DNA of 36,556 nt from an uncultured Verrucomicrobia subdivision 3 bacterium (lineage in GTDB: Bacteria > Verrucomicrobiota > Verrucomicrobiia > Limisphaerales > UBA8199), in the NCBI GenBank assembly GCA_903913865.1, contig CAIWMU010000257.1, positions 1 through 36,556 on the forward strand. The letters run 5' to 3'. The stretch's first letter is position 1. Each line of letters starts with the position of its first letter. A program made the translations under genes and the position numbers. Shown here in pieces: positions 1,174-17,870 of this stretch. The notes under the pieces were generated by a model that worked only from the letters and a program-made list of their open reading frames with translations, made no database searches and had not been told where the DNA came from.

Positions 1174-4100
1174 ATGAAAAGTCTAAAACGTATCCTAACG
1201 CTCGTTCTGCTAACCCTAACACTAACAACCGCAACCGCGCAAAGTTGGATAACAAACGGCCTTGTGGCCTATTACCCGTTCAATGGCAGCGCAACTGACG
1301 CGACTGGACGCGGGAATGATGGAACCGCTTTTAATGTCGTGCAGACAACCAACCGCTATGGTGATCCAAATAGCGCCTTCAAATTCAACGGTGTTCAAGA
1401 CCCAGGAGGTTCACAAGTGATTGTTTCAAATTCGGTCTTCAACATAGGACAGCCTGAATATACCATACACTTTTGGTTCAAGCCGGATAACACCACACAG
1501 GACACCCGCTGTATGTTTAACACCATCCCACATACTGGAATTAGTATCAATTTCAATGTCAACAACACGTCCTATCTCAATTACTTCATCGGCCCAGCCA
1601 ACGCCTATTGGACATCCTCATACCGCCATGGACCCAAGCATGATTATGTCGCAGGGCAGTGGTACGCAAGCACCATGACTAAATCAGGAACCACCTACAG
1701 TTTTTACGTGGATGGGCAGTTGGAAGACAGCATCGTCATAGCCGCCGCTGCAAACTACAATTACGATGTGCAGTTCAGGCTCAGTGGAATCGACACGGTC
1801 AACCAGATCTTCGCGGGTGATCTGGATGATGTGCGGATCTACAGCCGATCCCTCTCCGCGAGCGAGGTTTTGCAACTGTTCCAATACAATGAGGGTTTGT
1901 TGGCCCCGACGATCACCGCGCACCCACAGGGTGTATCGACTACCGCAGGCGGCGAAGCCACCTTCAGCGTCACCGCTTCCGGAGCCGCTCCTCTCTCCTA
2001 CCAATGGCGCAAAGACGCTCTTACCCTACCCGGTGCTACCGGTTCATCCCTCACATTCACCAACGTGCAACCGCCGCGCATCGGTGACTATACGGTGGTC
2101 ATCACAAACGCATCCGGCAGCGTGACTAGCAGCGTGGCGAGTTTGAGCATTCCCGACGTCGATTCGGCGATCTGGAAGAACCTTGTGGCCTATTATCCGT
2201 TTAATGGGAACGCAAACGATGCGAGCGGCAACCGAAATAATGGGACTGTCACCGGTCCGGTTTTGGCTCCTGATAGATTCGGTACGCCAGACAGTGCCTA
2301 CCTTCTCAACGGCACCAGTGGTTATATTGTCGTTCCAAACGCCCCAGCGAATAATTTGTCACCGGAGTTTACTATCAGCTTTTGGATGAAACCAAATCCC
2401 GGCTATGGAACCCCTTTTTGGGGCAACATTCCGATTGTTTGTAAATGGGGTGACGGAGGGGTAGGGTTGGCCTCCTACTCAGTCGGCGTTACTTCATCGG
2501 GGAAACTGTTCCTGGCAACGTGTGACCCAACAACAACGACACAGGTAGATGACACTTCGGTCACAACGACAGGAGTCTGGCATCAGGTGCAACTCGTCAG
2601 GGACGGAACTGGTTTCCATCTCTACAGGGATAACACCTTGCTGTTTTCTACAAACACCTTAGTGCAACCACAACCGTCGGTGTATAATTTGAACTTCGGC
2701 GGGGGAGACGTGAACGACCAAGCGTACTATGGAGGATCATTAGATGACGTTCGCATTTACAACCGGGCCTTGTCGTCCGCCGAAGTCGCCCGACTCTATG
2801 CAAGCGAGGCACCGGCACCCCCCGCCATCACTCAGCAACCAGCTGGGCGGGTCGCTAATCAGGGAGATTCCGTAACATTTGAAGTCAGGGCGAACAGCAC
2901 TCTTACACTTACCTACCAGTGGCAGAAAGACGGTCTGACCCTGCCCGGTGCTACCGGTTCATCCCTCACATTCACCAACGTGCAACCGCCGCGCATCGGT
3001 GACTACACGGTGGTCATCACAAACGCATCCGGCAGCGTGACTAGCAGCGTGGCGAGTTTAAGCATCTCCAACATCAATTCGGCCCTCTGGAAGAACCTTG
3101 TGGCCTATTATCCGTTCAATGGGAATGCGAACGATGAGAGTGATAATCGGAACAGTGGTGCCATTCATGGTGCTACATTGGTCAGTGACCGCTTTGGAGG
3201 CCAGGGTCTGGCGATGGAGTTCGACGGTGTCAGCCATTACATTTCTGCCCCTCACCAGCCATACCTCAACTTCCCGTCCGGCGACTTCACAGTATCCTTC
3301 TGGGCCGCGTTGAATGACCTCTCTCGTGTACAATACTTGATTGGCAAGGACATGGGTCAGGGAATTCAAAACAAGTGGATTGTGACCTATATGTCCCCTG
3401 TGGGGTTTGGCTTGTTTATTAATGGTCCGGGGGTGGCTTTCGCGGATTTGAAGCCGCAGGTAAACACCTGGCACCAGTTTGTATTTCGGAAGAGCGGCTC
3501 GGACTATTCATTCTGCTTCGATGGGTCCTTGGCCTCAAGCGGGCCGGGGGCAAGCAGCCTGAGACCGGATAACACAGCACCTTTGACGATCGGATGGGCC
3601 GAAGGCCCTGCGTTTTTTGGGGGGAAAATGGACGACATCCGCATCTATGGCCGCGCCCTATCCTCCGATGAAGTCTCACAACTCTACACGAGCGAGGCCC
3701 CCACAGCCCCATCGATCACCCGCCAACCTGTCAGCCAAGTCACCAATCAGGGAGGCGTGGTGGCTTTCGATGTGGGAGCCGCAAGCAATGGAGTTCTGAC
3801 CTACCAATGGCGCAAAAACGGTGGCGATCTCGTGGGAGCAACAGACTCGATCCTCACCCTGTCGAGTGTTCAGCCCTCCGACGCAGGGAATTACACGGTC
3901 GTTGTTGGCGCGGGCGGACAGACTGTCACCAGTGCTGTGGCCCGGTTGGATGTCATTCATAGGGCAACTGCCACGCCCATCGTTAACTTCGGCTTTGTGG
4001 TGGGTGGTACCGTTTTAGGCGGCGGGTTTGGCTATACCAACACGCCTCTGGTCCACATCGTCGGTGGTGGTGGGAGTGGGGCCGTGGCCACGGCGATCGT

Positions 4101-4842
4101 GAGCAACGGGGTTGTGACGGGGATCCGGATGTTGAACGCCGGGTTCGACTATACCAGCACACCGCTGATGATCATTCAGCCGCCGTTCATTCCGTCCCCA
4201 AGTCTGGCGGTCTCCCCCATGACAGAATTGACCTCCGCCGAACTGGCGCAGGGGGGCAACTACCAACTGCAGCGCAAGATGGTTTGGTTCTGGACGAACG
4301 AGATGCCCAGCTTCCAGGCCACATCATCCTCCATCACCCAACTGGTGGCGGGGATTGCCGGGACGGCGACTTACCGTCTGGTCCTCTCTCCGACCCCGTC
4401 GCAGGCCTTTGCGACGCCGGAGATGGTGCATGGGTTTGTGGTTGGGGTGACAATCAATGCCGGTGGATCCGGCTATGTGACCACTCCCCGGGTGGTGATC
4501 TACGGCGGAGGCGGAACGAACGCGACTGCGGTGGCCAGCCTGACGGGTGGGGTGGTGACCGGGATTGCGATTACCAGCGCGGGAATAGGTTACACCAGTG
4601 CGCCTTCCATCCGGATCGATCCCCCACCGGCGGCATCGGTGACCCCGCAGCAGACCCAGGTGCTCCGGTTGAAATCGGCGAATCTCTCTCCATACGACAC
4701 CTACCGGTTTGAAGCCACCCCGGCTGTGGGCAGCGGTTGGCAGGCGATCGGGAGTGCGGTGGTGCCGACCGAATCGACGAACACGACAGATGTAACGGTG
4801 ACAAACAGCGCAGGGTTCCTGCGTCTCAAATACGTGCCGTGA
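1174..4842 (+). CDS. Secreted multidomain LamG/Ig-like repeat protein
   Basis: This is a 1222-aa secreted protein with a clear signal peptide (KR near the start, a leucine/threonine-rich core, cleavage near ATAQS at about residue 23). Three LamG/concanavalin-like modules are visible at about 28-235, 334-545 and 634-840. Each opens with VAYYPFNG and closes with a DDVRIY/DDIRIYxRxLS motif. Each is followed by an Ig-like module (about 243-326, 548-632, 845-925) with YQWRK/YQWQK and G(D/N)YTVV motifs. The C-terminal part carries two glycine-rich repeats (about 935-1008 and 1084-1149). No catalytic residues are recognised, and a role in carbohydrate binding or surface adhesion is inferred. No Shine-Dalgarno sequence is evident, and the start is set by the signal peptide. 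The first LamG part looks AT-richer than the neighbouring genes. No LPxTG motif or typical sorting domain was seen at the C-terminus. Confidence 0.9.
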   Translation: MKSLKRILTLVLLTLTLTTATAQSWITNGLVAYYPFNGSATDATGRGNDGTAFNVVQTTNRYGDPNSAFKFNGVQDPGGSQVIVSNSVFNIGQPEYTIHFWFKPDNTTQDTRCMFNTIPHTGISINFNVNNTSYLNYFIGPANAYWTSSYRHGPKHDYVAGQWYASTMTKSGTTYSFYVDGQLEDSIVIAAAANYNYDVQFRLSGIDTVNQIFAGDLDDVRIYSRSLSASEVLQLFQYNEGLLAPTITAHPQGVSTTAGGEATFSVTASGAAPLSYQWRKDALTLPGATGSSLTFTNVQPPRIGDYTVVITNASGSVTSSVASLSIPDVDSAIWKNLVAYYPFNGNANDASGNRNNGTVTGPVLAPDRFGTPDSAYLLNGTSGYIVVPNAPANNLSPEFTISFWMKPNPGYGTPFWGNIPIVCKWGDGGVGLASYSVGVTSSGKLFLATCDPTTTTQVDDTSVTTTGVWHQVQLVRDGTGFHLYRDNTLLFSTNTLVQPQPSVYNLNFGGGDVNDQAYYGGSLDDVRIYNRALSSAEVARLYASEAPAPPAITQQPAGRVANQGDSVTFEVRANSTLTLTYQWQKDGLTLPGATGSSLTFTNVQPPRIGDYTVVITNASGSVTSSVASLSISNINSALWKNLVAYYPFNGNANDESDNRNSGAIHGATLVSDRFGGQGLAMEFDGVSHYISAPHQPYLNFPSGDFTVSFWAALNDLSRVQYLIGKDMGQGIQNKWIVTYMSPVGFGLFINGPGVAFADLKPQVNTWHQFVFRKSGSDYSFCFDGSLASSGPGASSLRPDNTAPLTIGWAEGPAFFGGKMDDIRIYGRALSSDEVSQLYTSEAPTAPSITRQPVSQVTNQGGVVAFDVGAASNGVLTYQWRKNGGDLVGATDSILTLSSVQPSDAGNYTVVVGAGGQTVTSAVARLDVIHRATATPIVNFGFVVGGTVLGGGFGYTNTPLVHIVGGGGSGAVATAIVSNGVVTGIRMLNAGFDYTSTPLMIIQPPFIPSPSLAVSPMTELTSAELAQGGNYQLQRKMVWFWTNEMPSFQATSSSITQLVAGIAGTATYRLVLSPTPSQAFATPEMVHGFVVGVTINAGGSGYVTTPRVVIYGGGGTNATAVASLTGGVVTGIAITSAGIGYTSAPSIRIDPPPAASVTPQQTQVLRLKSANLSPYDTYRFEATPAVGSGWQAIGSAVVPTESTNTTDVTVTNSAGFLRLKYVP
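2029..2144 (+). repeat. Intragenic Ig-module duplication, copy 1
   Basis: These 116 bases encode most of the first Ig-like module. They match 2944-3059 with a single silent t/c difference, while the flanking LamG modules have diverged widely. This points to recent duplication or gene conversion inside the gene. Confidence 0.9.
2944..3059 (+). repeat. Intragenic Ig-module duplication, copy 2
   Basis: This is the partner of the block at 2029-2144. It is followed by a second stretch of strong similarity (tggaagaaccttgtggccta at 2173 and 3089) that opens the next LamG module. The repeated unit is therefore one LamG-plus-Ig module of about 0.9 kb. Confidence 0.9.
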
Positions 4843-5658
4843 TGTTCGCGGGGTGTTGTGCCAAGCCGGAACGACGGCACAACCCCTTTCGGGGTAGGGA
4901 ACGTGATGCGACCAGGACCCGGGGTAGTGCGGCGACCCGCACAACCCCGGGCTTTATGGCACAACCTCGTTGAGGTTGGGAAGGGGACATGCGTTGTTGG
5001 ACGGGGGTTGGCCGGTTTGCCGCTGGGACCTGTAAAAAATCTCACGCGAAGACGCCAAGGCGCGAAGAAGAGACAGGATTCGGGTGCTTGGCGTCCGGGT
5101 GGCTCAAATACGTGCCGTGATGTTCGCGGGGTGTTGAGCCAAGCCGGAACGACGGCACAACCCCTTTCGGGGTAGGGAACGTGATGTGGCCAGGACCCGG
5201 GGTAGTGCGGCGATCCGCACAACCCCGGGCTTTATGGCACAACCTCGTTGAGGTTGGGAAGGGGACATGCGTTGTTGGACGGGGGTTGGCCGGTTTACCG
5301 CTGGGACCCGGAAAAAGTCTCACGCGAAGACGCCAAGACGCGAAGAAGAGCCAGGATTCGGGTGCTTGGCGTCCCGGTGGCTCAAATACGTGCCGTGACG
5401 TTCGCGGGGTGTTGAGCCAAGCCGGAACGACGGCACAACCCCTTTCGGGGTAGGGAGCGCGATGTGGCCAGGACCCGGGGTAGTGCGGCGACCCGCACAA
5501 CCCCGGGCTTTATGGCACAACCTCGTTGAGGTTGGGAAGGGGACATGCGTTGTTGGACGGGGGTTGGTCGTTTTACCGCTGGGACCCGGGAAAAGTCTCA
5601 CGCGAAGACGCCAAGGCGCGAAGAAGAGACAGGATTCGGGTGCTTGGCGTCCGGGCGT
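4825..5658 (+). repeat. Three tandem 278-bp repeats that include the gene's 3' end
   Basis: Units start at 4825, 5103 and 5381, each with ctcaaatacgtgccgtga. In the first unit these bases are the last codons and stop of the LamG-repeat gene (Leu-Lys-Tyr-Val-Pro-stop). Each unit then holds an inverted family A element, including gttgtgcc/ggcacaac and acccctttcggggt hairpins, followed by the left half of a family B element. The units differ by only a few bases. The hairpins just after the stop codon could act as transcription terminators, though no long T-run follows. The whole interval to 5966 has no credible gene. Confidence 0.9.
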
Positions 5659-5900
5659 CTGTGCGCGATAAAATAGGTTCGGTGCGCATGGTCTTTCCCT
5701 CCGCGTTCTCTGCGTCTCTGCGCGATGCATTCCCTTCCGTGGGACCCGGAAAAAGTTTCACGCGAAGACGCCAAGGCGCGAAGAAGAGACAGGATTCGGG
5801 TGCTTGGCGTCCCGGCGTCTGTGCGCGATAAGCTCCGTTCGGTGCATATGGTCTTTCCCTCCGCGTTCTCTGCGTCTCTGCGCGATGCATTCCCTTCCGT
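5581..5900 (+). repeat. Two tandem 160-bp family B units
   Basis: Unit starts gggacccgg occur at 5581 and 5741, and both units end at cccttccgt. Each contains a full family B palindrome plus a tail with tctgcgtctctgcgcgatgc. The first unit overlaps the end of the third 278-bp unit, so the arrays are nested. Bases 5764-5866 nearly duplicate 237-339 upstream of the LamG gene. Confidence 0.85.
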
Positions 5901-5966: not shown

Positions 5967-7895
5967 ATGAGCGACCTGCAAATCATCCAGACAGCGCTCT
6001 CGGAGACCGCCGACCGATGCCGGTGGGTGGCCGGGAACCGGCAACTCTGGCGCGGCATGCGGGCGGGAGCAGTTCTTGCCTTGATCCTGCTGCTGGCCTG
6101 GAAGATTTTCCCTTTTGATTTTCGCATCGTGGTGGCGTTTTCCATGGCACCCATCGCCGGGGCGGTGGGTGGATTTCTTCTGGGCTGGTTTCGCAAGCCC
6201 ACACTCCAGAGCGTGGCCCGGTGGGTGGATGCCCGGCTGGACACACGCGAGACACTGGGGACCGCCCTGGAATGGGCCTCGAAACCGCAGTCTGATCCCT
6301 GGCAGAACCTGGTTCTTGCGGATGCCGTGGTTACGGTGAAGGCCATCGATCGGCATCAACTGCTGCCCCTGCAACTGACCCGCGAGGCCCGCTGGAGTCT
6401 GGGCCTGCTGGTGTTGATCTTCTGTCTGGCCTGGGTGCCGGAGCACCGGAGTGCCCTGGATGAGGGATTGGCGCGGGAGGAGCGGAACATCCGGGAGGCG
6501 GGCACGCAGTTGCGCGAAATCGCCCGGCGCAGCCTTGAGCAACGGCAGCCGATTTCCCCCGGGACACGCGAGGCGCTCGAGGGGATGCAGGAACTGGGGC
6601 TGGAGCTGGAACGGAAAACCCTTACCCGGGATGAAGCCCTGAAGGATCTGGCGCAAAACCGGGACCGGCTCAAGAATCAGGTGGAGGAGTTGGCAAAAAC
6701 ACCCATGGATCAAAACCTCCAACGGGCGGCGCGTGAGGGTGGTCAGGCGGGGTTGAATCCTGAGAATCTCCGGAGCCGCATGGAGGCACTCAAAAAGAGC
6801 CTGGGAACGGCGGCCACGCCGGAACAGCTTGCAAAGCTCGAAAAACAGCTCGAAAAGATCCGGGATGCCGCGCAGGCGGCGCAAAACACCAAGGGGGCTG
6901 CCGCCGCAACCGCCCGGCAGGAGATGGCTGGTGCACTTGGAGCACTGGAACAGGAGGCGCGGGATCTGGGTCTGAGCCTGCCCCAACTGGACGCCGCAAT
7001 GGCGGCCCTCGCAGCGAATGACCCATCCCGGATGCTGCAGGAGATGCAGAAGGCATTGACCGATCTCGACAAACTGCGGGAGACGGCCAAAGCGATCGAA
7101 CAGATGCAGGGGCAGATGGAGCAGTTGGGCAAAAACCTGGCTGAACAACTCGGCAAGGGCCAGATGGAGGCGGCCCAAGCCACCCTGCGCAAAATGGTGC
7201 GGGAATTGAAAGGCCAGCGCCTCAACCCGGAACAGGTCAGAGAGATGCTGCAGGAGTTGGAGAAGGCCCTCGAACCGGCCTCCAAATACGGCGATGTCCC
7301 GGAGGACCTGAAAAAGGCACTGGCCCGGATCAAAGCCGGGCAGAATTCGGGCGCAGGGGAATCGCTTCAGGCCGCAGCGGACAAGCTCGCCAAAATGTCG
7401 GAACAACTCGGGGATGCGCAGCAGATGCTGGCGGCACTGGAGAGCCTGAACCAGGCCTCGGCGGCCATTGGCTCGGGTCAGGGCTGGAGGGTTGCGAAGG
7501 GTGGCAAGCCCTCCACCGACCCGACCCGCCAACCGGGTGGAGGGGTGGGGACATGGGCTGCCGATGGGCTGACGGAGGAGGCGGAACAGACTGAGCCGTG
7601 GGACAACATGGACCTGAGCCGCCCCGGGATGAAGGCCCGGGGACTCTCGGACCGTGGCGAGGGATCCACGCCGGAGGGAATGAAACCGGATCGCGTTAAG
7701 GGAACTTTTTCGCCCGGGGCACCGATGCCGGGCATCACCTTGAAAGGTGTGAGCATCCGGGGCCAAAGCCGCGTGGCGCTGCAGGAGGCGGCAGTGGCGG
7801 CCCAGTCAGAAGCGCAAAGTGCGGTCACCCAGGACAAGGTGCCGCAGGCCTACCAGGGCACGGTGCGCCAGTATTTCGACGACATCAAAAAATAA
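5967..7895 (+). CDS. Membrane-anchored coiled-coil protein, DUF4175-like
   Basis: This 642-aa protein heads the operon. Hydrophobic segments lie at about 31-48, 53-75 and 143-157, preceding a long Glu/Gln/Ala/Leu-rich region (about 165-500) that looks like an extended coiled coil. The motif VARWVDARLDTRETLGTALE (about 83-102) resembles the N-terminal part of DUF4175-type proteins found beside VWA genes. The rest is low-complexity helical sequence with a Gly/Pro-rich stretch at about 505-590. The ATG is preceded by a good Shine-Dalgarno (gggagag), which fixes the start. The stop lies 3 bp before the MoxR gene. It is probably a membrane scaffold of the MoxR/VWA system; no enzyme motif is visible. 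The family assignment is tentative. Confidence 0.85.
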   Translation: MSDLQIIQTALSETADRCRWVAGNRQLWRGMRAGAVLALILLLAWKIFPFDFRIVVAFSMAPIAGAVGGFLLGWFRKPTLQSVARWVDARLDTRETLGTALEWASKPQSDPWQNLVLADAVVTVKAIDRHQLLPLQLTREARWSLGLLVLIFCLAWVPEHRSALDEGLAREERNIREAGTQLREIARRSLEQRQPISPGTREALEGMQELGLELERKTLTRDEALKDLAQNRDRLKNQVEELAKTPMDQNLQRAAREGGQAGLNPENLRSRMEALKKSLGTAATPEQLAKLEKQLEKIRDAAQAAQNTKGAAAATARQEMAGALGALEQEARDLGLSLPQLDAAMAALAANDPSRMLQEMQKALTDLDKLRETAKAIEQMQGQMEQLGKNLAEQLGKGQMEAAQATLRKMVRELKGQRLNPEQVREMLQELEKALEPASKYGDVPEDLKKALARIKAGQNSGAGESLQAAADKLAKMSEQLGDAQQMLAALESLNQASAAIGSGQGWRVAKGGKPSTDPTRQPGGGVGTWAADGLTEEAEQTEPWDNMDLSRPGMKARGLSDRGEGSTPEGMKPDRVKGTFSPGAPMPGITLKGVSIRGQSRVALQEAAVAAQSEAQSAVTQDKVPQAYQGTVRQYFDDIKK

Positions 7896-7898
7896 CCC

Positions 7899-8918
7899 AT
7901 GCAAACAATGGATCCACAGGAGAAAATCGGCAGGTTCAAGGCGGGCTACGAGGCCCTGCGACGGGAGATTGGCCGGGTGATCGTCGGCCATGACGCGGTG
8001 GTGGAAAGCACCCTGACAGCCCTCTTTGCCGGGGGGCACGTGCTGCTGGAGGGGGTGCCGGGGCTGGGAAAGACCCTGCTGGTGCGAACCCTCGGAGAGG
8101 CCTTGGATCTCTCCTTCAACCGCATCCAGTTCACGCCCGATCTGATGCCCGCCGACATTCTCGGCACCAACATCGTGATGGAATCGGCTGCCGGCAAACG
8201 GGAATTCCAGTTCCAGCCCGGCCCCATCTTTGCCCACCTGCTGCTGGCGGATGAGATCAACCGCGCAACACCCAAGACGCAATCGGCCCTGCTCGAGGCG
8301 ATGCAGGAGCACCAGGTGACGGCAGGCGGGCAGTTGCGGAAGCTGGGGGAACCGTTCTTCGTGATGGCGACACAGAATCCCATCGACCAGGAGGGCACGT
8401 ATCCACTGCCTGAGGCCCAGCTGGACCGGTTCTTTTTCAAAATCCTTGTGGGCTATCCGAGCGGCGCAGAACTGGCGGAGGTGCTGGCGCGGACGACCTC
8501 CGGCGAGGTGCAGCGCCCTGCGAAGGTGATGGACGGGCGGCAACTGGTGGATTTGATCCAGCTGGTGCGGGGTGTGCCGGTGGCATCCCATGTGCAGGAT
8601 TATGCCGTGCGCCTCGTGATGGCCACCCACCCGGGCACCGCCACAGCCGCACCTGCGGCAACCCGCTTTCTACGGTTCGGCAGCAGCCCCCGGGGAGGCC
8701 AGGCACTGCTGCTTGCGGGGAAGGTCCGGGCGCTCGTGCAGGGCCGGCACAATGTCGGCTACGAGGATCTGGAGGCGGCTGTCCTGCCCGCATTCCGGCA
8801 CCGGCTGATCCTGAATTTTGATGCCGAAGCCGAGGGGATGACCACCGATGCCCTGATTGCCGAAGTGCTGCGCCATGTGCCCCGCGACGCCGCGGGCGGG
8901 ACCGCACCCGGCCTTTGA
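7899..8918 (+). CDS. MoxR-family AAA+ ATPase
   Basis: This 339-aa protein has every hallmark of a MoxR ATPase. Walker A is GVPGLGKT at 52-59, Walker B is LLADEINR at 115-122, a sensor-1 region ATQNP sits at 157-161, and PEAQLDRF at 171-178 is typical of the family. MoxR proteins act as chaperone-like ATPases that remodel or activate VWA-domain partners, and here DUF58 and VWA genes follow directly. The gene begins 3 bp after the previous stop, and a second ATG three codons in is an alternative start. No clear Shine-Dalgarno is present, so translational coupling is likely. It is not an ABC-type ATPase, since it lacks the ABC signature. Confidence 0.97.
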   Translation: MQTMDPQEKIGRFKAGYEALRREIGRVIVGHDAVVESTLTALFAGGHVLLEGVPGLGKTLLVRTLGEALDLSFNRIQFTPDLMPADILGTNIVMESAAGKREFQFQPGPIFAHLLLADEINRATPKTQSALLEAMQEHQVTAGGQLRKLGEPFFVMATQNPIDQEGTYPLPEAQLDRFFFKILVGYPSGAELAEVLARTTSGEVQRPAKVMDGRQLVDLIQLVRGVPVASHVQDYAVRLVMATHPGTATAAPAATRFLRFGSSPRGGQALLLAGKVRALVQGRHNVGYEDLEAAVLPAFRHRLILNFDAEAEGMTTDALIAEVLRHVPRDAAGGTAPGL

Positions 8919-8932
8919 TCCCGCCCCGCAAC

Positions 8933-9835
8933 ATGGCCCCACTGCTCACACCCCGGTTGCTCCTCGCCCTGGAACGGCTCGAGCTGATGGCGGCGCGCCG
9001 TGCCCACGGGACCGCCCGGGGGGAGCGGTCCAGCCGTGCCCGGGGGCAATCGGTTGAATTCGCTGATTACCGGAACTATGTGCATGGGGACGATTTCCGG
9101 CACATCGACTGGAATCTTTACGGGCGGCTGGAGAAGCTGTTTCTCAAGCTCTACGAGGAGGAGCGGGAACTCCCGGTGCGCCTGTTTCTGGATGCCAGTG
9201 AGTCGATGTCGTTCGGCCAGCCGTCCAAGTTTGATTTTGCGCGCCAGGTTGCCGCGGCCATCGGGCATGTGGCCCTGTGCGGATTTGACCGTGTGGAGGT
9301 GGCGGTCTTTCCCCAGGGGGAGACAGGGCCGGCAGAACGGGCTGCGCGGGCGCATCTGCGCCGGGTGCGCGGGCGGAAGAGTGCCACGCCGTTCTTCGCC
9401 AACCTGGCAGCGTTGCAACCGGGAGGGGCCGTGAATTTGAATGCAGCCCTGCAGCGGGCCGCACTCGAATCCCGCGGCACCGGGCTTGCCGTGGTGCTGA
9501 GCGATTTTCTGGATCCGTCGGGATATGAGAGCGGCCTCGGAGCCCTTGTGGCGCGGGGCTTGCAGGTGGTGGTCATCCAGGTGCTCGCGCCCGAGGAGAT
9601 CGCGCCGGACTTCTTTGGCGACCTGCGCCTCGTGGATTCCGAGACAGGGGCCATTCAGGAGGTGACCTTCGGCAAATACCGGCTGAAGGCGTATGGTGCG
9701 GCACTCGCAGGGTTCGTCAGCGGGTTGCGGGAGTTTTGCACCCGGCGGGGGATCCGGTTCTTTTCCGTTTCCTCCGGGGCACCATTGGAGCCGTTCCTTC
9801 TGAAGGATCTGCGGCAGGGGGAGGTATGGAGGTGA
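8933..9835 (+). CDS. DUF58 family protein with VWA-like fold
   Basis: This 300-aa protein carries the DUF58 signature DYRNYVHGDDFRHIDW (45-60) and a MIDAS-like DASES motif (87-91). DUF58 proteins are regular partners of MoxR ATPases and are thought to bind metal or ligand through a VWA-like fold. ATG 8933 gives a natural N-terminus. An in-frame TTG at 8915, overlapping the moxR stop, would add six residues. No membrane segment is seen, so a cytoplasmic location is likely. Order and spacing (14 bp after moxR, 7 bp before the next gene) support one transcript. Confidence 0.93.
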   Translation: MAPLLTPRLLLALERLELMAARRAHGTARGERSSRARGQSVEFADYRNYVHGDDFRHIDWNLYGRLEKLFLKLYEEERELPVRLFLDASESMSFGQPSKFDFARQVAAAIGHVALCGFDRVEVAVFPQGETGPAERAARAHLRRVRGRKSATPFFANLAALQPGGAVNLNAALQRAALESRGTGLAVVLSDFLDPSGYESGLGALVARGLQVVVIQVLAPEEIAPDFFGDLRLVDSETGAIQEVTFGKYRLKAYGAALAGFVSGLREFCTRRGIRFFSVSSGAPLEPFLLKDLRQGEVWR

Positions 9836-9842
9836 GTGGCCG

Positions 9843-11675
9843 ATGAATTTTCTCGCCCCGCTGGCCTTTGCATTCGCCGCCACGATTCCGGTGGTGATCC
9901 TCTTTTACCTGCTGAAACGCAGGCGGACTGTTCGTCTTGTGGCGAGCACCGTGTTGTGGCAACGGTTCCTGGGGGAGACCGAGGCGAGTGCCCCGTTCCA
10001 AAAACTCAGGCGTAACTGGCTGCTGGTGCTGCAACTGCTCCTTCTCGCGCTGGCAATACTCGCGCTGGCCCGGCCCTACTTCTCAGGAACGCAAAAGCCC
10101 TCCGATCTGCGGGTGCTGATCATTGATGCCTCCGCCTCGATGCAGGCCACGGATGTGGGTCCATCCCGCTTTGCGGAGGCCCAAGCCCAGGCCTTGAAAT
10201 GGGTGGAGGCTCTCTCCGGCCGCGACCAGATGGTGGTGATCCTCGCCGGGGCTGAGGCACAGGTCAAACAGTCGGCCACGAGCGACAAGGCCTCCCTGCG
10301 CAGGGCCCTGAATGCCTGTGCCCCCACTGATGCGCCGACCCGGCTTGCCCCGGCCCTGCGCATGGGGGAAGGTCTCGTCCGGGACCGGCCCGCAGCGGAG
10401 ATCCATCTCTTCAGCGATGGTGCCGCGCCGGGCCTTGAGGAATTTGAAAACAAGGCGCTGCCCCTTGTTTACCATCGCATCGGAGTGAGCGGTGAGAATC
10501 TTGGCATCGTGGCGATGGATCTGCGGGCGAACCCGGACCAGCCGCGTCGCCGACAGGTTTACGCCGCCATTGCAAACAGCGGCACCAACCCGCATCCCGC
10601 ACGGGTGGAATTCCGTCTGGATGATCTCCTGCTGGAAACCCGGTCCATCACCATTGAGGGTGGCGAAACGGCACGCCTGCTCTTTGAGCTGAGCCAGACA
10701 AAGGATGGGGTCGCCAGCGTGCGTATCGATGGGAAGGATGCCCTCGAGGCGGACAATCAGGCCTCCATCATCAGCACGATGCCGAGACCGGCCCGGGTGC
10801 TGCTCGTGACGCGGGGAAACCGCTTTCTTGAAAAAGCCCTCGCCGCAGTGCCCAATCTGGAATTGAACGTCGCGAGCCGTCTGGATGATTCCGCAACGGT
10901 TTACGATGTGGTGGTGTTGGATGATCTCGTGCCGGTCTCGTGGCCTAAAGCCAACCTGCTATCCATCCACGCCTTCAACACAAACTGGGCCACGGGCTGG
11001 CGGACGCTTGAGCAACCGGCCATCACCGACTGGCGCGCCTCACACCCGCTGCTCCGCTATGTGTCCCTCGACAACGTGCAGGTGCGGGAAAGTGTGGCAG
11101 TGACACCCCCCGGGTGGGCCGTCTCGCTGGTGGATTCCCCCCAGGCATCCCTCATGTTTGCCGGGCAGGCCCGTTCGCAAAAGGTCATCTGGATCGGCTT
11201 TGACCTTCTGGAGAGCAACTGGCCGCTGCGCCTTTCCTTCCCCATCTTCATCGCCAACGCCATGGAATGGCTCGATCCCGCCAATGAGCAATCCAGAATG
11301 TTCATGAAAACCGGGGAACCGTTTCGCCTGCGTGTGCCGGGACCGGTCACCGGGGCCACGATGCTCCTTCCGGATGGAACAACGCGGCGATTGGAAACCT
11401 CCCCCGGCCAGACCGAACTGGTCTTTGGGGATACCTCCGCGCGGGGATTGTACCGGTGCACCGCCGGAACCAACCGGATCTCCTTCTGCGTCAATCTTCT
11501 TGATCCTCTTGAGAGCCGGATCGCCCCCCGGGAGGAGTTGCGCTTTTCAAAACGGGCGGGCGTGGTCGCAAGTGGCACCCAATCCACCCACCAGGAGTTT
11601 TGGCGCTGGTTCGCGGCGATCGGGTTCATCGTCCTGCTGTGGGAATGGTGGTATTATCATCGGAGGTCTGCATGA
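9843..11675 (+). CDS. BatA-like membrane VWA-domain protein
   Basis: This 610-aa protein starts with a BatA-type N-terminal region: a hydrophobic helix at about 5-24, the RRRTVRLVASTVLW stretch, and a second helix at about 58-77. A VWA domain follows with a MIDAS motif DASAS at 95-99. A C-terminal membrane helix lies at about 586-607 (WRWFAAIGFIVLLWEWWYY). The middle is probably exposed outside the cytoplasmic membrane. Bat proteins are known partners of MoxR/DUF58 in stress-tolerance and envelope clusters. A ggaggt-rich stretch lies upstream of the ATG. The stop overlaps the next start by four bases (ATGA). Confidence 0.92.
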   Translation: MNFLAPLAFAFAATIPVVILFYLLKRRRTVRLVASTVLWQRFLGETEASAPFQKLRRNWLLVLQLLLLALAILALARPYFSGTQKPSDLRVLIIDASASMQATDVGPSRFAEAQAQALKWVEALSGRDQMVVILAGAEAQVKQSATSDKASLRRALNACAPTDAPTRLAPALRMGEGLVRDRPAAEIHLFSDGAAPGLEEFENKALPLVYHRIGVSGENLGIVAMDLRANPDQPRRRQVYAAIANSGTNPHPARVEFRLDDLLLETRSITIEGGETARLLFELSQTKDGVASVRIDGKDALEADNQASIISTMPRPARVLLVTRGNRFLEKALAAVPNLELNVASRLDDSATVYDVVVLDDLVPVSWPKANLLSIHAFNTNWATGWRTLEQPAITDWRASHPLLRYVSLDNVQVRESVAVTPPGWAVSLVDSPQASLMFAGQARSQKVIWIGFDLLESNWPLRLSFPIFIANAMEWLDPANEQSRMFMKTGEPFRLRVPGPVTGATMLLPDGTTRRLETSPGQTELVFGDTSARGLYRCTAGTNRISFCVNLLDPLESRIAPREELRFSKRAGVVASGTQSTHQEFWRWFAAIGFIVLLWEWWYYHRRSA

Positions 11676-12640
11676 GCGGGAATCGAGGGAATGAGGCATC
11701 TGCAAGTGGAGTCCCCGCCATGGGTCGCTGGGCACTGGCTGCCGCGGTGACCGGGCTGGTTCTGGCCTTGTGGCTTGAGCTTCGACCGGTGAATGCCGTG
11801 GTGGTTTATTGTGCGCAGGATCAGGTCTATGCCGAGCAGGTCTTCCGGCTGGCGGAAAAGGAGATGGGGATTCGTGTTCTCCCGGTATATGACAGTGAGG
11901 CAGTGAAAACCGTGGGGCTTGCCAACCGGCTGCTCGCGGAGCGGGACCGTCCCAGGGCGGATCTGTTCTGGGGCAATGAGGAACTCCGGGCCCGGCAAAT
12001 GGCCGCACGGGAAATTTTCCTGTCGGCAAACGGGCTCGCATTTTTTGGCGACCGCACACGTTGCCTGGTGGTGAACACCCAACTCTGGCGAGGCATGCGG
12101 AGTGGGGTCAGCCTGATGGACCTGACCAACAGCACCTGGCGCGGGAAGGTGGCCATCGCCTACCCGCAGTTTGGCACCACCGCCGCCCATTTCCACGCCC
12201 TGCGCCAGCACTGGGGGGATGCCGCATGGACCACCTGGTGCCGCAACCTCGCCGCAAACCGGCCCATCATCGTCGATGGCAATTCCGTGGTGGTGCAGAT
12301 GGTCGCCTCGGGCGAGGCGCATATCGGGCTGACCGATTCCGATGATGTTGTGGCGGGCCTCCGCGAGGGCCGGCCCATCGCGGCCCTGCCACTTCCCGGG
12401 GAGACGCTTCACATCCCCAACAGCGTGGGACTGGTCCGCGGCGGACCGCACCCGGAGGCAGCGCGGCGGCTGTCGCAATTTTTGTGTGACCCCCGGGTGG
12501 CATCCATGCTCGTGGAATCCGGCGCACTGAACGGCGTAGCCCCGGATCCCAACCTCCCGGGACTGGCTCCGGGGTGGGACCGCATCCTCACAGAACTGGA
12601 CGCCACCACGGCGGAGCTGAACAGGATTTTCCTGAGATGA
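11672..12640 (+). CDS. ABC-type extracellular solute-binding protein, iron(III)-type
   Basis: This is a 322-aa periplasmic-binding-protein-like protein. One N-terminal hydrophobic segment (about 19-36) can serve as signal or anchor, and mature sequence begins near VVVYCAQDQVYAEQVF. The layout (an early VYxAxD-type strand, RADLFWGNE, a WRGKVAIAYPQFGTTAAHF block, and SGEAHIGLTDSDDV) resembles the AfuA/FbpA-type family of iron or small-anion binding proteins. The start at 11672 has a strong ggagg Shine-Dalgarno and overlaps the preceding stop by four bases; an upstream in-frame ATG at 11600 would lie inside batA. It is coupled by ATGA to the permease gene. The ligand cannot be told from sequence. 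No ABC ATPase gene is present nearby. Confidence 0.88.
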   Translation: MSGNRGNEASASGVPAMGRWALAAAVTGLVLALWLELRPVNAVVVYCAQDQVYAEQVFRLAEKEMGIRVLPVYDSEAVKTVGLANRLLAERDRPRADLFWGNEELRARQMAAREIFLSANGLAFFGDRTRCLVVNTQLWRGMRSGVSLMDLTNSTWRGKVAIAYPQFGTTAAHFHALRQHWGDAAWTTWCRNLAANRPIIVDGNSVVVQMVASGEAHIGLTDSDDVVAGLREGRPIAALPLPGETLHIPNSVGLVRGGPHPEAARRLSQFLCDPRVASMLVESGALNGVAPDPNLPGLAPGWDRILTELDATTAELNRIFLR

Positions 12641-15000
12641 ACCGGGTATTACTGGGAAACAGCCTGCTGGTTGCCACGATCGCCACGGTTCTCGCGGTCG
12701 GGATGGGAGCCCTGTGCGCGCTGCTCTCGATGTGCCTTGGCCCTTCCGGTCGCAGGGGACTGATCCTGGTGGCGGTGGTGTCCCTCTGCATGCCCCCGTT
12801 TCTGACGGCAAACACCTGGCTGCACTATCTCGGAATGGCCGGGGTCTGGCGGAGCTGGCTGCCCCTCAACATTCTCACCCCCTGGGGATGTGCATGGGTG
12901 CTTGCCTTGCTGTTCTGGCCGGTCTCCTTCCTTGCCCTTTCCGCCGTCTGGAGCGGGATCGGCCGTGCGGAAGTGGAGGTGGATCCGGCGGTGCGGGGGC
13001 GCTGGTTCATTCTGGGCATCCTTCTGCCCCGCGCCCGGGGGGCTCTGGCGCAATGTGCTGTTGTCATCCTGGTGATGGCCTTGAACCAGTTCTCCGTGCC
13101 TGCACTCCTTCAAATCAAAGTTTACCCGGCGGAGATGTGGGTGCGTTACAACACCGGCCTCGACTTCACCGGGGCGTTGATGCTCTCCTGGCCTCTCGTG
13201 GCGACCCCACTGCTGCTCCTGTGGGGGCTGCGGGGCCGGGTGTTCCAATGGCGGGCTGCGGCACGTCCGCCGGAGCCGCGCCGTTTCCGGCAGCAGATCG
13301 GCCCGGCATGGATGGCCATGGCCGTCCTCGCCGGATCCACCGCCATTCTCGCCTCGGCAGGACTGCCCCTGTTTCAACTCCTCTCGAATCCGCGCACGTG
13401 GACCGAGCTTGGGGGGGCACTGAGTGCCGGAACCCGGGCCTGCTGGAACTCGCTGTTTCTGGCGATCGCCGGGGCTGTGTTGTGCGTGGGGATCGGTTTT
13501 GCGGGTCACCGCTCCCGCATCCCGGGGCTCCTGTGGCTCACCTTCCTGATTCCCGGGACGGTCACCGGCATTGTCCTGCTCATCATTCTCAATCGGCCGG
13601 GTTCCGGGTTCCTGATCGATACCCCGCTGGCCGCCCTGCTGGCGCTGGTGCTGCACTATTCGGCCCTCAGCGGCTGGCTGATCCGGCGGGCCATCCGCAG
13701 CATGGATCCTGTGCTGACCGATGATGCCCGGCTGCTGGGTCTGGGGAGGTGGGAACAGTTCCGGGACATCCAGTGGCCGCAGGTGGCGCCCCAGGCGGCC
13801 GCGGCCTTTTACGTGGTGTATCTCCTCTGCCTTTGGGATGTCGAAAGCACCCTGCTGCTGATTCCGCCCGGGGGCGAGACGCTCGCCCTGAGGGTGTTCA
13901 ATCTACTGCATACAGGCTATAGCGGACAGGTGAACGCCCTCTGCGTGGTGCTGCTGGGGTTGGGCCTGCTTCCGCTGCCGTTCCTGGGTCTCCTCCGGCG
14001 CGGATGGCGGGGGCCGCAACCCAAGACCCGGATGGCTATGACCTTGGCCGGTCTGTTGTGCATCACCGGTTGCAGCCCGGGCAACGACACTGGCAGGGCG
14101 GATCTGCAGAGCCGCTTTTTCAGTTCCGCCGAAGTGATCTGCACCCGTGGCACGGCGGCGGGGCAGGTGAACAAGCCCCGTTCAGTGGCGGCCGATGAGG
14201 AGGGAACGCTCTACGTGGTGGACATGACCGGCCGCGTGCAGCGGTTCGGCCCGGATGGCGCCTACCAGTTGATGTGGCAGATGGAGCAGACCGCCCTGGG
14301 CCGTCCCAAGGGCCTTTGCATCGACAGGCAGGGGCGGGTGGTGGTGAACGAGCCGCACTATTCCCGGGTGAACCATTTTTCACCGGATGGAAGGCTGCTG
14401 CTGCGCTGGGGAACCCACGGGACCAACGCCGGTGAACTGGCATTTCCCCGCGCTGTCGCGGTCAACAGCAAGGGGGAGGTCTTCCTGAGTGAGTATGGAC
14501 TTGTGGAGCGGGTGCAGCGATTCGCACCCGGTGCCGGGGGCTTCGTTGCCACCTTTGGACGGGCCGGGCAGCGCTCCGGCGAATTCAACCGGGCGGAGGG
14601 TTTGTGCATCGATTCAGAGGACCGCCTCCATGTGGCCGATTCCTGCAACCACCGCATTCAGGTGTTCAATCCGGACGGCACCTTCCGCATGGCCTTTGGC
14701 ACGGGCGGCAGCGGCTCGGGTGAACTGGCATATCCCTACGACATCTGCGTGGACCGGGAGGGTTTTCAATTCGTCTGCGAATTTGGCAACAGCCGCATCC
14801 AGGTGTTTGACGCCGCGGGCAAATCTGTGGAAATCATCGGCGGGCCGGGCTCGGAACCTGGCCGGTTCAACAATCCCTGGGGGGTGGCACTGGACGGGGC
14901 GGGAAATCTCTACGTGGCTGATTCGCAGAATCACCGGGTCCAAAAACTGGTTCGGCGGAAAAGTGGCGCGCCGGGCGCAGACGGAAAGGGGGGCGGGTGA
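12637..15000 (+). CDS. ABC permease fused to NHL-repeat lipoprotein-like domain
   Basis: One 787-aa frame joins two modules. Residues 1 to about 465 are a two-half FbpB-like ABC permease with many hydrophobic helices. The second half carries an EAA-type loop (DDARLLGLGRWEQFRDIQWP), while the first half has a weaker one (near VRGRWFILGILLPRA). From Met466, MAMTLAGLLCITGC has the form of a lipoprotein signal with lipobox ITGC (Cys479). About six NHL repeats follow to the end, with motifs such as GVALDGAGNLYVADSQNHRV. There is no stop between the modules. An internal start at ATG 14032 or 14038 could give a separate 320-aa lipoprotein, but no strong Shine-Dalgarno precedes it. The start at 12637 overlaps the binding-protein stop (ATGA), and the end overlaps the next start (GTGA). 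Confidence 0.88.
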   Translation: MNRVLLGNSLLVATIATVLAVGMGALCALLSMCLGPSGRRGLILVAVVSLCMPPFLTANTWLHYLGMAGVWRSWLPLNILTPWGCAWVLALLFWPVSFLALSAVWSGIGRAEVEVDPAVRGRWFILGILLPRARGALAQCAVVILVMALNQFSVPALLQIKVYPAEMWVRYNTGLDFTGALMLSWPLVATPLLLLWGLRGRVFQWRAAARPPEPRRFRQQIGPAWMAMAVLAGSTAILASAGLPLFQLLSNPRTWTELGGALSAGTRACWNSLFLAIAGAVLCVGIGFAGHRSRIPGLLWLTFLIPGTVTGIVLLIILNRPGSGFLIDTPLAALLALVLHYSALSGWLIRRAIRSMDPVLTDDARLLGLGRWEQFRDIQWPQVAPQAAAAFYVVYLLCLWDVESTLLLIPPGGETLALRVFNLLHTGYSGQVNALCVVLLGLGLLPLPFLGLLRRGWRGPQPKTRMAMTLAGLLCITGCSPGNDTGRADLQSRFFSSAEVICTRGTAAGQVNKPRSVAADEEGTLYVVDMTGRVQRFGPDGAYQLMWQMEQTALGRPKGLCIDRQGRVVVNEPHYSRVNHFSPDGRLLLRWGTHGTNAGELAFPRAVAVNSKGEVFLSEYGLVERVQRFAPGAGGFVATFGRAGQRSGEFNRAEGLCIDSEDRLHVADSCNHRIQVFNPDGTFRMAFGTGGSGSGELAYPYDICVDREGFQFVCEFGNSRIQVFDAAGKSVEIIGGPGSEPGRFNNPWGVALDGAGNLYVADSQNHRVQKLVRRKSGAPGADGKGGG

Positions 15001-17870
15001 CGTTCCAATTCACCCATGCGGTTTGGCTGTGGGCCGTGGTGCCTGCCCTGGGCTGGATCATCTGGCTTGCCCGCAAGAGCGACATCCGGCTTTCCTCCCG
15101 CCGCTGGTGGGCCTCGCTGCTCCTGCGTCTGGTTGTGGCCCTCCTGCTCCTCCTCGCACTGGCAGGCCTTCAGTCCCTGATCCCCGTGGAGGGCATGAAC
15201 GTGTTCTATGTGATGGACCGTTCAGACAGCATTCCCGCCCCCCGGCAGGAGGCGGTGCGGGAGTGGATCAACCGCAGTGCCAAATCGAGGAAGGCGGGCG
15301 ACAAGGCCGGTGTGATTGTTTTCGGGACCGAGGCGGCCATCGAGTTTCTGCCCAATCCAATCGTTGAATTTCCGAAGGTTCAGGCGGTTGTCGGCACCGG
15401 ACGCTCGGACCTGGCAGGGGCGATCCGGCTGGGCTCGGCGGCCTTTCCCGAGACAGGCCAGAAGCGGCTGGTCCTGATGACCGACGGCAACGAAAACATC
15501 GGGGATGCCCTGGGCGCAACCATCGCCGCCCGCCAGCTCGGGGCCACTGTGGATGTCCTCCCGCTGAAGGTCGAGCGGGGCGGGGATGTCTCCCTCCAGC
15601 GCCTGCAGGCACCCTCACGGCTCAAGCGCGGGCAGCCCTTTGAGGTGAAGATTTTCACGGAGTCCGACCGCCCCCGGGAGGCCACCGTCCGCCTGTTCCG
15701 CAACGAGCAACTTCTGGGACAACAACAGGTCAGACTTCAAAAGGGCAGGAACCTCCACACCTTTCCACAGACCCTGCCGCAGAGCGGCTTCTACAGCTAC
15801 GATGTGCAACTGGATGTGCCCGGGGATCCAATCCCCCAGAACAACCGGGGCTCCGCGTTCACGATGGTCTCCGGGGATCCGCGGATTCTCCTGGTCACGG
15901 CAGATCTGGCGCAGGATGAGCCGCTCGCCGGGGCGCTGCGTGCTGCGCGGTTGCAGGTCACCGTTGCGGACCTCCGGCAGTTTCCATCCACTCTCGCGGA
16001 GATGCAGAGTTACGATGCCATCTTCATCAGCAACCTTTCCGCAGGGGATATCGGCACCGAACGGCAGAAACTTTTGGAGAGTGCGGTGCGGGATTTCGGG
16101 GTGGGGCTGGTCTGTCTGGGTGGGGATCAGGCTTTTGCGGCGGGCGGTTACCGGGGCACGCCGCTGGAATCGATCCTCCCTGTCAGCATGGAGCTGGACA
16201 GCAAGAAGGTGCTGCCCAGCGGCGCGGTGGTGATGGTCATGCACGGCATGGAATTCGCCAACGGCAACCAGATCGCCCGCGATTGTGCGCAGGGGGTGCT
16301 CGCCGCGCTGGGACCGTCCGACGAGATGGGGGTGGTGCTTTGGGACGGCTCCGAACGCTGGCTGTTCGACCTGCAGAAGGTCGGCACAAAGAAGGAACTC
16401 GCACGCCAGATCGCGGGCATGAACCAGGGGGATCTGGGCTCCTTCCAGCGCGTGCTGGAGATGGCCCATGAGGCGCTGGTGAAATCCCCGGCCCACCTCA
16501 AGCACATCATTGTCTTCAGCGATGGCGATCCCCAGATCCCCTCGGAAGAGTTGATGGCATCCATCCTGAAAGACCGGATCACGGTCAGCTCAATCCTGAT
16601 CGCAGGCCATGTCGGACCGCAGACCATGATCTGGCTGGCGGAGAAGGGGGGGGGACGCTTTTACAACATCACCTCCCCCGATGAACTGCCTCAGATCTTT
16701 CTCAAGGAAACTGCCGTCATTTTGAAATCGGCGATCTATGAGGAACCGTTCCGGCCCCAGCTCCGGGCGGGCACTGAGCCGGTGCGCGGGATTGCGGCCT
16801 CCGGTTATCCAACCCTGCTCGGCCATGTGGCCACCACCGAAAAGCCCCGGGCCGAAACCCCCCTCTGGACGGAAAATGGCGATCCCCTCCTCGCCCACTG
16901 GCAATTCGGGCTGGGTCGCGCCGTGGCCTTCACATCCGATGCCCGTGCCCGGTGGGGGAAGAACTGGGTGGGCTGGTCCCAGTATCGGCAGTTTTGGTCC
17001 CAGACCGCCCAATGGGCCCTTCGCCGGACGGAGAATGCGCTGTTCACGCCCGAGCTGGCGATTGTCGGCGGCGAGGGGGTGATCAGCGTGGATGCCGTGG
17101 ATGCACAGGGGAATTACCGGAACTTTCTGAACCTCCAGGCCGCAGTCGTGGGTCCGAAGGGGGACCGCCAGACCGTCCGGCTTGAGCAATCCGCCCCGGG
17201 CCATTACGAGGCCCGATTTCCCACGACAGCCACCGGGACCTACATGGCGAACGTGATCGAGACGGGGGCGGATGGCGCGCGCTCCTCACAGGTCGTGGGG
17301 GCATCCGTCAACTATTCGCCGGAATTCAACGATACCGGACCCAACATGGCCTTGCTCACACGGATTGCCGAAGTGGGTGGCGGCCGTTTGTTGCAGCCTG
17401 AGACTCCCAACCCATTCCTGCATGACCGCGTCAAGACCCGCCAGGCCCGTGATCTCTGGGAATGGCTTCTCCGCTGTGCCATCCTCCTCTTCGTGTTCGA
17501 TGTGGCCACACGGCGCATCCACATTGACAGGGAGGAATGGGCGGAAGCCTGGGGCATGATCCGGCAACGAATCCCGCTGCTCAATCGCGAGCCCGCGAGC
17601 CCCGCCCCGGCCCAGCCATCCCTGAGCACACTCCTCGCCCGACGGGATCAGGCCCGTGCCGGGAGCAGGGAGGCGGCCCCCGGACAAGTGATCATTCCTC
17701 CGGGGCCAACCGTTCCCGTGAAGAGCCCGGGCATAATAACCAACGAACCACCCGCAACGGCCCCGGAGCAGCCCTCCCCGCCCAAGGTGAGAACCCCGGC
17801 GAGTGCTGCCAGCCGCCTCATGGCAGCAAGGCGTCGCTCCCAAAATCCACCTCAGGACCCTCCAGCCTGA
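14997..17870 (+). CDS. Large membrane VWA protein with glutamine-amidotransferase-like region
   Basis: This 957-aa protein starts at GTG, which overlaps the preceding stop. Two N-terminal membrane helices (about 5-25 and 42-60) precede a VWA domain with an intact MIDAS motif DRSDS (74-78) and a VLMTDGNENIGDA strand. The middle (about 295-400) contains the SYDAIFISNLSAG and GLVCLGGDQAFAAGGYRG blocks typical of the amidotransferase-like fold found in such proteins, without an obvious catalytic triad. A second VWA-like region (about 405-560) keeps IIVFSDGDP but has MHGME where DxSxS is expected, so metal binding there is doubtful. A C-terminal helix at about 820-840 and a Pro-rich cytoplasmic tail close the protein. 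It completes the MoxR/Bat-type operon as a probable envelope component. Confidence 0.9.
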   Translation: MTFQFTHAVWLWAVVPALGWIIWLARKSDIRLSSRRWWASLLLRLVVALLLLLALAGLQSLIPVEGMNVFYVMDRSDSIPAPRQEAVREWINRSAKSRKAGDKAGVIVFGTEAAIEFLPNPIVEFPKVQAVVGTGRSDLAGAIRLGSAAFPETGQKRLVLMTDGNENIGDALGATIAARQLGATVDVLPLKVERGGDVSLQRLQAPSRLKRGQPFEVKIFTESDRPREATVRLFRNEQLLGQQQVRLQKGRNLHTFPQTLPQSGFYSYDVQLDVPGDPIPQNNRGSAFTMVSGDPRILLVTADLAQDEPLAGALRAARLQVTVADLRQFPSTLAEMQSYDAIFISNLSAGDIGTERQKLLESAVRDFGVGLVCLGGDQAFAAGGYRGTPLESILPVSMELDSKKVLPSGAVVMVMHGMEFANGNQIARDCAQGVLAALGPSDEMGVVLWDGSERWLFDLQKVGTKKELARQIAGMNQGDLGSFQRVLEMAHEALVKSPAHLKHIIVFSDGDPQIPSEELMASILKDRITVSSILIAGHVGPQTMIWLAEKGGGRFYNITSPDELPQIFLKETAVILKSAIYEEPFRPQLRAGTEPVRGIAASGYPTLLGHVATTEKPRAETPLWTENGDPLLAHWQFGLGRAVAFTSDARARWGKNWVGWSQYRQFWSQTAQWALRRTENALFTPELAIVGGEGVISVDAVDAQGNYRNFLNLQAAVVGPKGDRQTVRLEQSAPGHYEARFPTTATGTYMANVIETGADGARSSQVVGASVNYSPEFNDTGPNMALLTRIAEVGGGRLLQPETPNPFLHDRVKTRQARDLWEWLLRCAILLFVFDVATRRIHIDREEWAEAWGMIRQRIPLLNREPASPAPAQPSLSTLLARRDQARAGSREAAPGQVIIPPGPTVPVKSPGIITNEPPATAPEQPSPPKVRTPASAASRLMAARRRSQNPPQDPPA

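Follow-up and report, generated by a model that had tools for sequence, protein, structure and literature searches.

A permease joined in one frame to an NHL propeller through an internal lipoprotein-type signal, conserved across much of the Limisphaerales

Why should one bacterial gene run from a polytopic transporter subunit straight into what looks like the signal and body of an exported lipoprotein? The question is raised by a gene on contig CAIWMU010000257.1 (assembly GCA_903913865.1) of an uncultured Verrucomicrobia subdivision 3 bacterium of the order Limisphaerales; we analysed the whole 36,556-nt stretch, here called the window. An earlier note had described an ATP-binding cassette (ABC) permease that continues without a stop into a lipoprotein signal and NHL repeats, with a lipobox at residues 476-479. 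We found that the gene encodes one continuous polypeptide, that the fusion is old and conserved and is located where related operons keep an ABC ATPase gene, and that the lipoprotein-type segment between the halves is kept. Its most likely working form, which we propose with moderate confidence, is a membrane polyprotein processed at the internal lipobox. The gene and its parts are as follows.

12637-15000, plus strand: fused permease::NHL gene, 787 amino acids, one open frame, conserved as fused in relatives
12637-13995, plus strand: permease part, about residues 1-453, FbpB fold (VIA-align to 9j4r_A, model range 1-454)
12964-13047, plus strand: first EAA-type loop, about residues 110-137, shortened as compared with most ATPase-linked permeases (alignment of 111 permeases)
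13699-13785, plus strand: second EAA-type loop, about residues 355-383, canonical (Gly 93%, Pro 95% among fused permeases)
13996-14031, plus strand: basic loop RRGWRGPQPKTR, residues 454-465, predicted to form the n-region of the internal signal in the cytoplasm (net-positive linkers)
14032-14073, plus strand: internal signal-peptide-like segment MAMTLAGLLCITGC, residues 466-479, with the lipobox ITGC at 476-479 and Cys479 at 14071-14073
14095-14961, plus strand: six-bladed NHL beta-propeller, residues 487-775 (NHL 107.6 bits; 6xg7, Z 41.2)

The sole stop of this frame stands at its end, and its start overlaps the stop codon of the upstream gene (ATGA). Pfam BPD_transp_1 matches residues 298-408 (30.8 bits; cut-off 26.4), and NHL matches the C-terminal part well above its cut-off of 20 bits. 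In an AlphaFold2 model of the fused protein (mean predicted local distance difference test score, pLDDT, 84.6), the permease helices extend to residue 456 and are followed by a helix at 462-473, a stretch of low confidence at 472-484 and a beta-propeller that runs to residue 773. Over residues 1-454, the model aligns with FbpB from the Thermus thermophilus importer of ferric ions, FbpBC (9j4r_A; Z 33.7, 437 of 490 residues aligned, 3.6 A), with which the permease shares the two-half fold, an FbpA-like gene upstream and the second EAA loop. In contrast to FbpB, it has no ATPase gene nearby and carries a C-terminal propeller; the alignment begins at FbpB residue 53, and the first helix of FbpB is probably missing. 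The propeller aligns with the NHL domain of Thin (6xg7; 280 residues, 2.0 A) and is of the six-bladed NHL type also seen in PknD (1rwl) and PAL (3fvz), differing from all three in being joined to a permease via a lipoprotein-type signal. The EAA loops of such permeases face the cytoplasm; because of this and the helix layout, we infer 5 + 6 membrane helices, a permease end in the cytoplasm and, after the hydrophobic segment 466-478, a periplasmic propeller. The basic loop ahead of the hydrophobic segment agrees with the positive-inside rule. The signal-like segment thus lies internally, from about residue 454, and not at the protein N-terminus as in bacterial lipoproteins.

The propeller has a peculiarity of its own. 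It contains the motifs ADSCNHR and VCEFGNS, and Cys670, Cys714, His574 and His672 are invariant in a 20-protein alignment; cysteines such as Cys670 and Cys714 look unusual for NHL repeats, and these residues may mark a ligand or catalytic site.

The joined frame is not peculiar to the window. Some match was given by 54 of 58 genomes (the window's own and relatives), and 39 regions from the relatives were examined frame by frame. Both halves were present in 29 of these regions and occupied a single stop-free frame in 28, the exception being G038, where they are adjacent separate genes. The halves lie on different contigs, with a stop ending the permease, in four regions of G013 and G050; a contig end truncates the NHL part in G028 (L063) and the permease in regions of G044 and G055; three regions (G057, G053, G044) carry distant matches only. 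Across the order, 166 of 320 genomes match at E 1e-60, and 108, including the window's, give one match spanning at least profile positions 24 to 744. Six of these near-full-length rows were flagged with one stop: in the three that were checked (G004, G011, G026) the halves share a frame, and G410, G498 and G604 are counted among the 108 as flagged. The fusion also occurs in two single-contig genomes, G376 and G352. In 288 genomes sampled evenly across the phylum, a full-length fused match was found in the window's own only. Among the named records that carry the fusion are contigs of Pedosphaera, Limisphaerales and Verrucomicrobia subdivision 3; the 80 named loci are the top 80 of 257 when ranked by match to the fused query, and the fused state of all 80 is therefore biased and gives no frequency. 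The fusion is thus genuine and common to much of the order, is held by a large group of soil and freshwater Verrucomicrobia, and is probably ancestral to the matching genomes.

Two oddities of the records should be mentioned. Contigs titled Akkermansia muciniphila (L161, L162, L188, L196, L198, L205) carry the fused locus, and their organism labels look wrong. In G380 (L243) the whole operon is there but is broken up into many frames, probably owing to sequencing errors of the assembly.

The junction between the halves retains the features of a lipoprotein signal. The ITGC lipobox was read at the residues that the earlier note had given, and Cys479 does not vary among 20 aligned fused proteins (20/20). 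A junction Cys was found in all 94 distinct fused open reading frames (ORFs) under a loose rule admitting G, A, S, N or C at position -1; a first pass over a narrower range found it in 89 of 90 non-redundant fused ORFs, preceded by G (81), S (5) or A (3). The 12 residues before this Cys are free of charged or strongly polar residues in 81/90 fused proteins. The linker ahead of it spans 19-109 residues in 32 distinct lengths and is net positive in 88/90, with K or R within the 12 residues preceding the hydrophobic part in 84/90. The strict lipobox motif, [LVI][ASTVI][GAS]C, occurs at the junction in 37/90 fused proteins, being loose at -3, and anywhere in the permease part of about 440 residues in 14/90. 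The window's genome encodes both LspA (PF01252) and Lgt (PF01790), each above cut-off. Separately, we noted repeat-like peptides (e.g., MLDVGCWMF, WMLVLGAWCFC) in the fused-gene linkers of L062, L067, L069, L175, L191 and L219, where at some of these loci they provide the hydrophobic part of the signal.

The arrangement of relatives from other classes suggests how the fused gene came about. The closest neighbour of the fused clade in a tree of the NHL part is G061; its genes run permease, ABC ATPase (with Walker A, LSGGE and Walker B motifs), NHL and VWA, and its NHL protein has a lipoprotein-like signal of its own. In G273, one strand encodes the coil protein, solute-binding protein (SBP), permease, ATPase, NHL, VWA, MoxR, DUF58 and BatA, the permease being recognised by its helices and position and not by the permease profile. 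The fused gene therefore joins two genes that flank an ATPase gene in these operons. No ABC ATPase was found within 5 kb of the fused gene at any of 46 non-redundant loci that extend 5 kb or more in both directions (0/46), and none on the window's contig, though the genome holds 53 ATPase matches. When the G061 ATPase was used as query in six fused genomes, it found only background-level paralogues (best E 2.0e-29 to 6.9e-35), background being set by G061's own best paralogue (5.9e-34), a level at which a diverged orthologue is still possible. Because of this result, the ATPase gene looks to have been lost, not moved. Relocation elsewhere in the genome was considered and set aside, no orthologue having been identified in the six genomes.

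Another lineage has an NHL lipoprotein of this kind joined to the ABC ATPase itself, in G292 (a 627-aa frame) and in four of the 49 genomes searched of family f42, the four being from one genus (loci L238:8878-11307, minus strand; L242; L131:8370-10250, plus strand; L280-L284). In these fusions the domains are separated by a hydrophobic stretch with a Cys at its end, which in G524 reads LLCLLLCVHLAGC right after the ATPase end. This ATPase::NHL fusion is independent of the permease::NHL fusion, and its sparse occurrence in f42 may reflect transfer between lineages. As a side observation, the lipobox-like stretch here separates a presumably cytoplasmic ATPase from the propeller.

The halves also appear to have come apart again. 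A concatenated permease, NHL and VWA tree (72 fused, 7 split and 4 outgroup rows) needs six changes, which would most simply be one fusion followed by five splits. The splits nest inside fused groups in this tree, with an ingroup root support of only 0.62; its 7 splits are checked ones, and it omits 18 of the 90 fused rows, which failed a completeness filter, as well as G606 and the g267 splits. A quick tree of the NHL part, in which many deep forks are open, likewise nests splits among fused rows; it labels 11 rows as split, including G028, where the break is a contig end only, and among them G569 and G606 were confirmed as separate. The permease stop and the NHL start share an ATGA in genus g267, the two genes being in different frames. 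In G423, about 2.7 kb separates the halves (L227:9207-12041), a gap that by eye presumably holds a DUF1559 prepilin-like gene and, on the opposite strand, an AAA-ATPase and RloB-like pair. The gene preceding the NHL gene of G606 is not the permease; in genus g263, G569 is split and G568 is joined as far as its contig end. The split NHL genes of the order (g267, G423, G606, G569) keep a lipoprotein-like signal. Alignment of orthologues thus gave a divided answer to the earlier question of whether the parts are separate genes: they are fused in much of the order, and separate in other classes and in several lineages of the order, so that homologues are not always separate. Since several lineages have separate halves, the joined form is dispensable, as would suit a product that finally exists as two pieces.

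How, then, might the fused product work? In the scheme that we favour, the permease would insert with 11 helices and end in the cytoplasm, and the basic loop with the hydrophobic segment would serve as an internal type-II signal peptide by which the propeller is exported via the Sec channel. The chain would next be modified and cut at Cys479 by Lgt and LspA, leaving the permease, without an ATPase, and the periplasmic NHL lipoprotein as two products, just as would be expected of two separate genes. This reading is based on the single frame in 28 of 29 regions, the absence of an ATPase gene near the 46 loci, the kept Cys, the net-positive linker, the uncharged stretch before the Cys, the lack of internal-start enrichment and the presence of LspA and Lgt; it also draws on the outgroup and split NHL proteins, which carry their own lipoprotein-like signal, and on the independent appearance of an ATPase::lipobox::NHL arrangement. 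A comparable case is the FbcH cytochrome b/c1 precursor of Bradyrhizobium, in which a membrane protein and an exported protein are joined by an internal signal peptide, with cleavage following translation; FbcH differs in involving signal peptidase I and a cytochrome instead of a lipobox and a permease. Several points weigh against cleavage. No precedent for signal peptidase II (SPase II) acting behind a long polytopic N-terminus was found among the open-licence papers that our search listed. The residue class at -1 was built into the rule that picked the Cys, so that the -1 statistics are partly predetermined, and the fused set was selected for one frame, so that the in-frame linker lengths are no independent proof of selection. 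Substitutions by codon position in the linker (88/73/101) show little residue-level constraint, in a weak test covering those 15 pairs, out of 61, whose linkers could be aligned; some of these pairs share members. Finally, the strict lipobox found in 37/90 fused proteins is present in 9/11 split NHL genes of the order, although the 11 rows are not independent (f2 and g267 supply three each), and in 1/5 outgroup stand-alone NHL genes (L127-L130, L132). The lipoboxes of fused proteins are therefore less strict than the split genes' lipoboxes, though no looser than the outgroup ones; the lipobox may have relaxed after fusion, and these counts make the case for cleavage somewhat weaker and raise that of an uncleaved product.

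Such an uncleaved fusion is in our view rather unlikely, but it is the main rival of the processed form. The hydrophobic segment would then be a permanent extra membrane helix that tethers the propeller to the permease on its periplasmic side, and the Cys would be structural or only lipidated. This reading would suit the deficit of strict lipoboxes relative to the split genes and the endurance of the fused state across 32 distinct linker lengths. However, the kept Cys, with a small residue beside it and an uncharged stretch leading up to it, is a requirement of SPase II but not of a plain anchor, the halves are separate genes in several lineages, the linker is otherwise unconstrained, and the stand-alone outgroup genes are equally loose at the lipobox. 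The earlier note had also raised an internal start (14032 or 14038). On that view the NHL lipoprotein would come mainly from its own ATG, with read-through incidental. The window has suitably placed ATGs, and several separate NHL genes of relatives have a start with a Shine-Dalgarno (SD)-like motif there, but among the 90 fused genes an ATG occurs in the junction start region in 18 (at the eight control offsets 3-25 of 89-90, save one offset with 84) and a start with an SD-like motif in 4 (3-15 of 89-90 at eight control offsets). Internal starts are thus not enriched at the junction as compared with the eight control offsets, and the basic residues of the window's would-be n-region lie upstream of both ATGs; we consider this mechanism quite improbable, and as a conserved one it finds no support in the counts. 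A recent stop loss, another of the note's proposals, or an assembly or sequencing error might be entertained for a draft genome in 267 contigs. The halves share one frame in 28 further genomes checked by frame, and 108 genomes, including the single-contig G376 and G352, give near-full-length single matches, which leaves this idea with next to no probability. What stood of the note's interpretation is therefore the true fusion that places the propeller next to the transporter, while the recent stop loss fell and the internal start went unsupported as a conserved mechanism; the ATPase gene at the relatives' junction and the MoxR-VWA operon had not figured in it.

Whether the permease still transports is a separate matter, compatible with either a cleaved or an uncleaved product. 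The second EAA loop is the usual contact with the ATPase. Its conservation among the fused permeases argues for continued ATPase contact, which would then occur in trans, as with MsmK, described in PMC12838199 as a remote shared ATPase that powers other ABC importers. In the scheme of a processed polyprotein, the permease may likewise be powered in trans by a housekeeping ABC ATPase, or transport may have been given up. The latter would make the permease a receptor or scaffold that passes the signal of the binding protein to the VWA and MoxR proteins. It would account for the lack of an ATPase gene near the fused gene, for the failure to find a close ATPase orthologue in six fused genomes and for the shortened first EAA loop, but it sits poorly with the kept second loop and with the existence of importers driven by a remote ATPase such as MsmK; we regard loss of transport as possible, though on the doubtful side.

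The operon around the fused gene gives further hints at its role. Its other genes in the window are the following.

5967-7895, plus strand: gene A, first gene of the operon, with N-terminal membrane segments and a coiled-coil-like part (by reading); no Pfam family above cut-off; orthologues in the same position
7899-8918, plus strand: MoxR AAA+ ATPase (AAA_3 212.3 bits; bpMoxR 40.8 bits, cut-off 27)
8915-9835, plus strand: DUF58 protein, start uncertain (DUF58 115.8 bits)
9843-11675, plus strand: BatA-like VWA membrane protein (BatA 51.4 bits, VWA_2 59.7 bits)
11672-12640, plus strand: FbpA-superfamily SBP (SBP_bac_11 41.3 bits, SBP_bac_6 27.5 bits)
14997-17870, plus strand: large VWA / GATase1-like membrane protein (VWA_2 52.2 bits, GATase1_like 49.8 bits)

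The order is therefore coil protein, MoxR, DUF58, BatA-like VWA, SBP, permease::NHL and VWA/GATase1-like, and the start of the last gene (14997) overlaps the end of the fused one. Counted at loci long enough to tell, and under fixed score and distance limits that may make the counts underestimates, the SBP is directly adjacent upstream in 71/79 loci, with BatA upstream in 63/69 and DUF58 in 55/65; further upstream stand MoxR (37/58) and the coil protein (16/32), and a VWA gene lies downstream in 74/81. MoxR, DUF58, BatA and VWA proteins in one operon are likewise found in the Bat/MoxR-DUF58-VWA operon type, from which the present operon differs in having the SBP and permease::NHL genes between the BatA and VWA genes. 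Apart from the operon, minus-strand frames at 4324-5730 of the window repeat the peptide MCGSPHYPGSW..., which points to a DNA repeat after the long plus-strand gene at 1174-4842.

In a profile comparison with ferric-binding proteins of the PDB, the best match of the SBP was 7w3w (E 1.2e-27). The Fe3+-binding tyrosines of 7w3w lie in its NNYY stretch. In the alignment this corresponds to LTDSDD of the SBP, where D222, D224 and D225 are invariant (D-x-D-D). Because the tyrosine stretch is so replaced, ferric binding of the FbpA kind is unlikely, as far as the alignment can tell. PMC12657314 describes MoxR-VWA pairs as aiding cofactor or metal insertion, for example of calcium into methanol dehydrogenase, and the present operon could conceivably have a metal- or ligand-delivery role. 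The products of the fused gene, together with the FbpA-like SBP and the MoxR-DUF58-VWA proteins, might then form an envelope complex handling a small ligand or metal, a step that we suggest more hesitantly than the processing itself. The fullest account that we can offer, a tentative one and on the whole unlikely to hold in every part, is of a natural membrane polyprotein in which an ATPase-less importer core and a propeller lipoprotein are freed from each other at an internal lipobox, the pair being the part of a MoxR-VWA envelope machine that senses the ligand or delivers metal, with the lipoprotein independently fused to the ATPase in a sister operon.

A related type of system has been reported: according to Kaur et al. 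2020 (PMC7159879), MoxR-vWA-beta-propeller ternary systems combine the three parts in one neighbourhood, and Verrucomicrobia are among the hosts. The present operon likewise holds MoxR, vWA and a beta-propeller in one neighbourhood, but its propeller is on the permease, and the P-loop of its MoxR reads GVPGLGKT. That MoxR exceeds the bpMoxR cut-off, yet AAA_3 matches it far better, and neither VWA protein of the operon contains a propeller family at E 0.01. Membership in the ternary systems was accordingly rejected, the propeller sitting on another protein. We found no published account of a permease::NHL fusion among the open-licence papers that our searches of titles and abstract openings listed.

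If the internal lipobox is used, lipoprotein maturation can serve as a polyprotein-processing step. This would matter for the prediction of lipoproteins as well, predictors of which examine N-termini. The locus is also an example of an ABC importer without its ATPase gene, whose permease and binding protein are still conserved, inside a MoxR-VWA operon. One locus thus makes both the energy source of the importer and the client of the MoxR-VWA operon testable questions.

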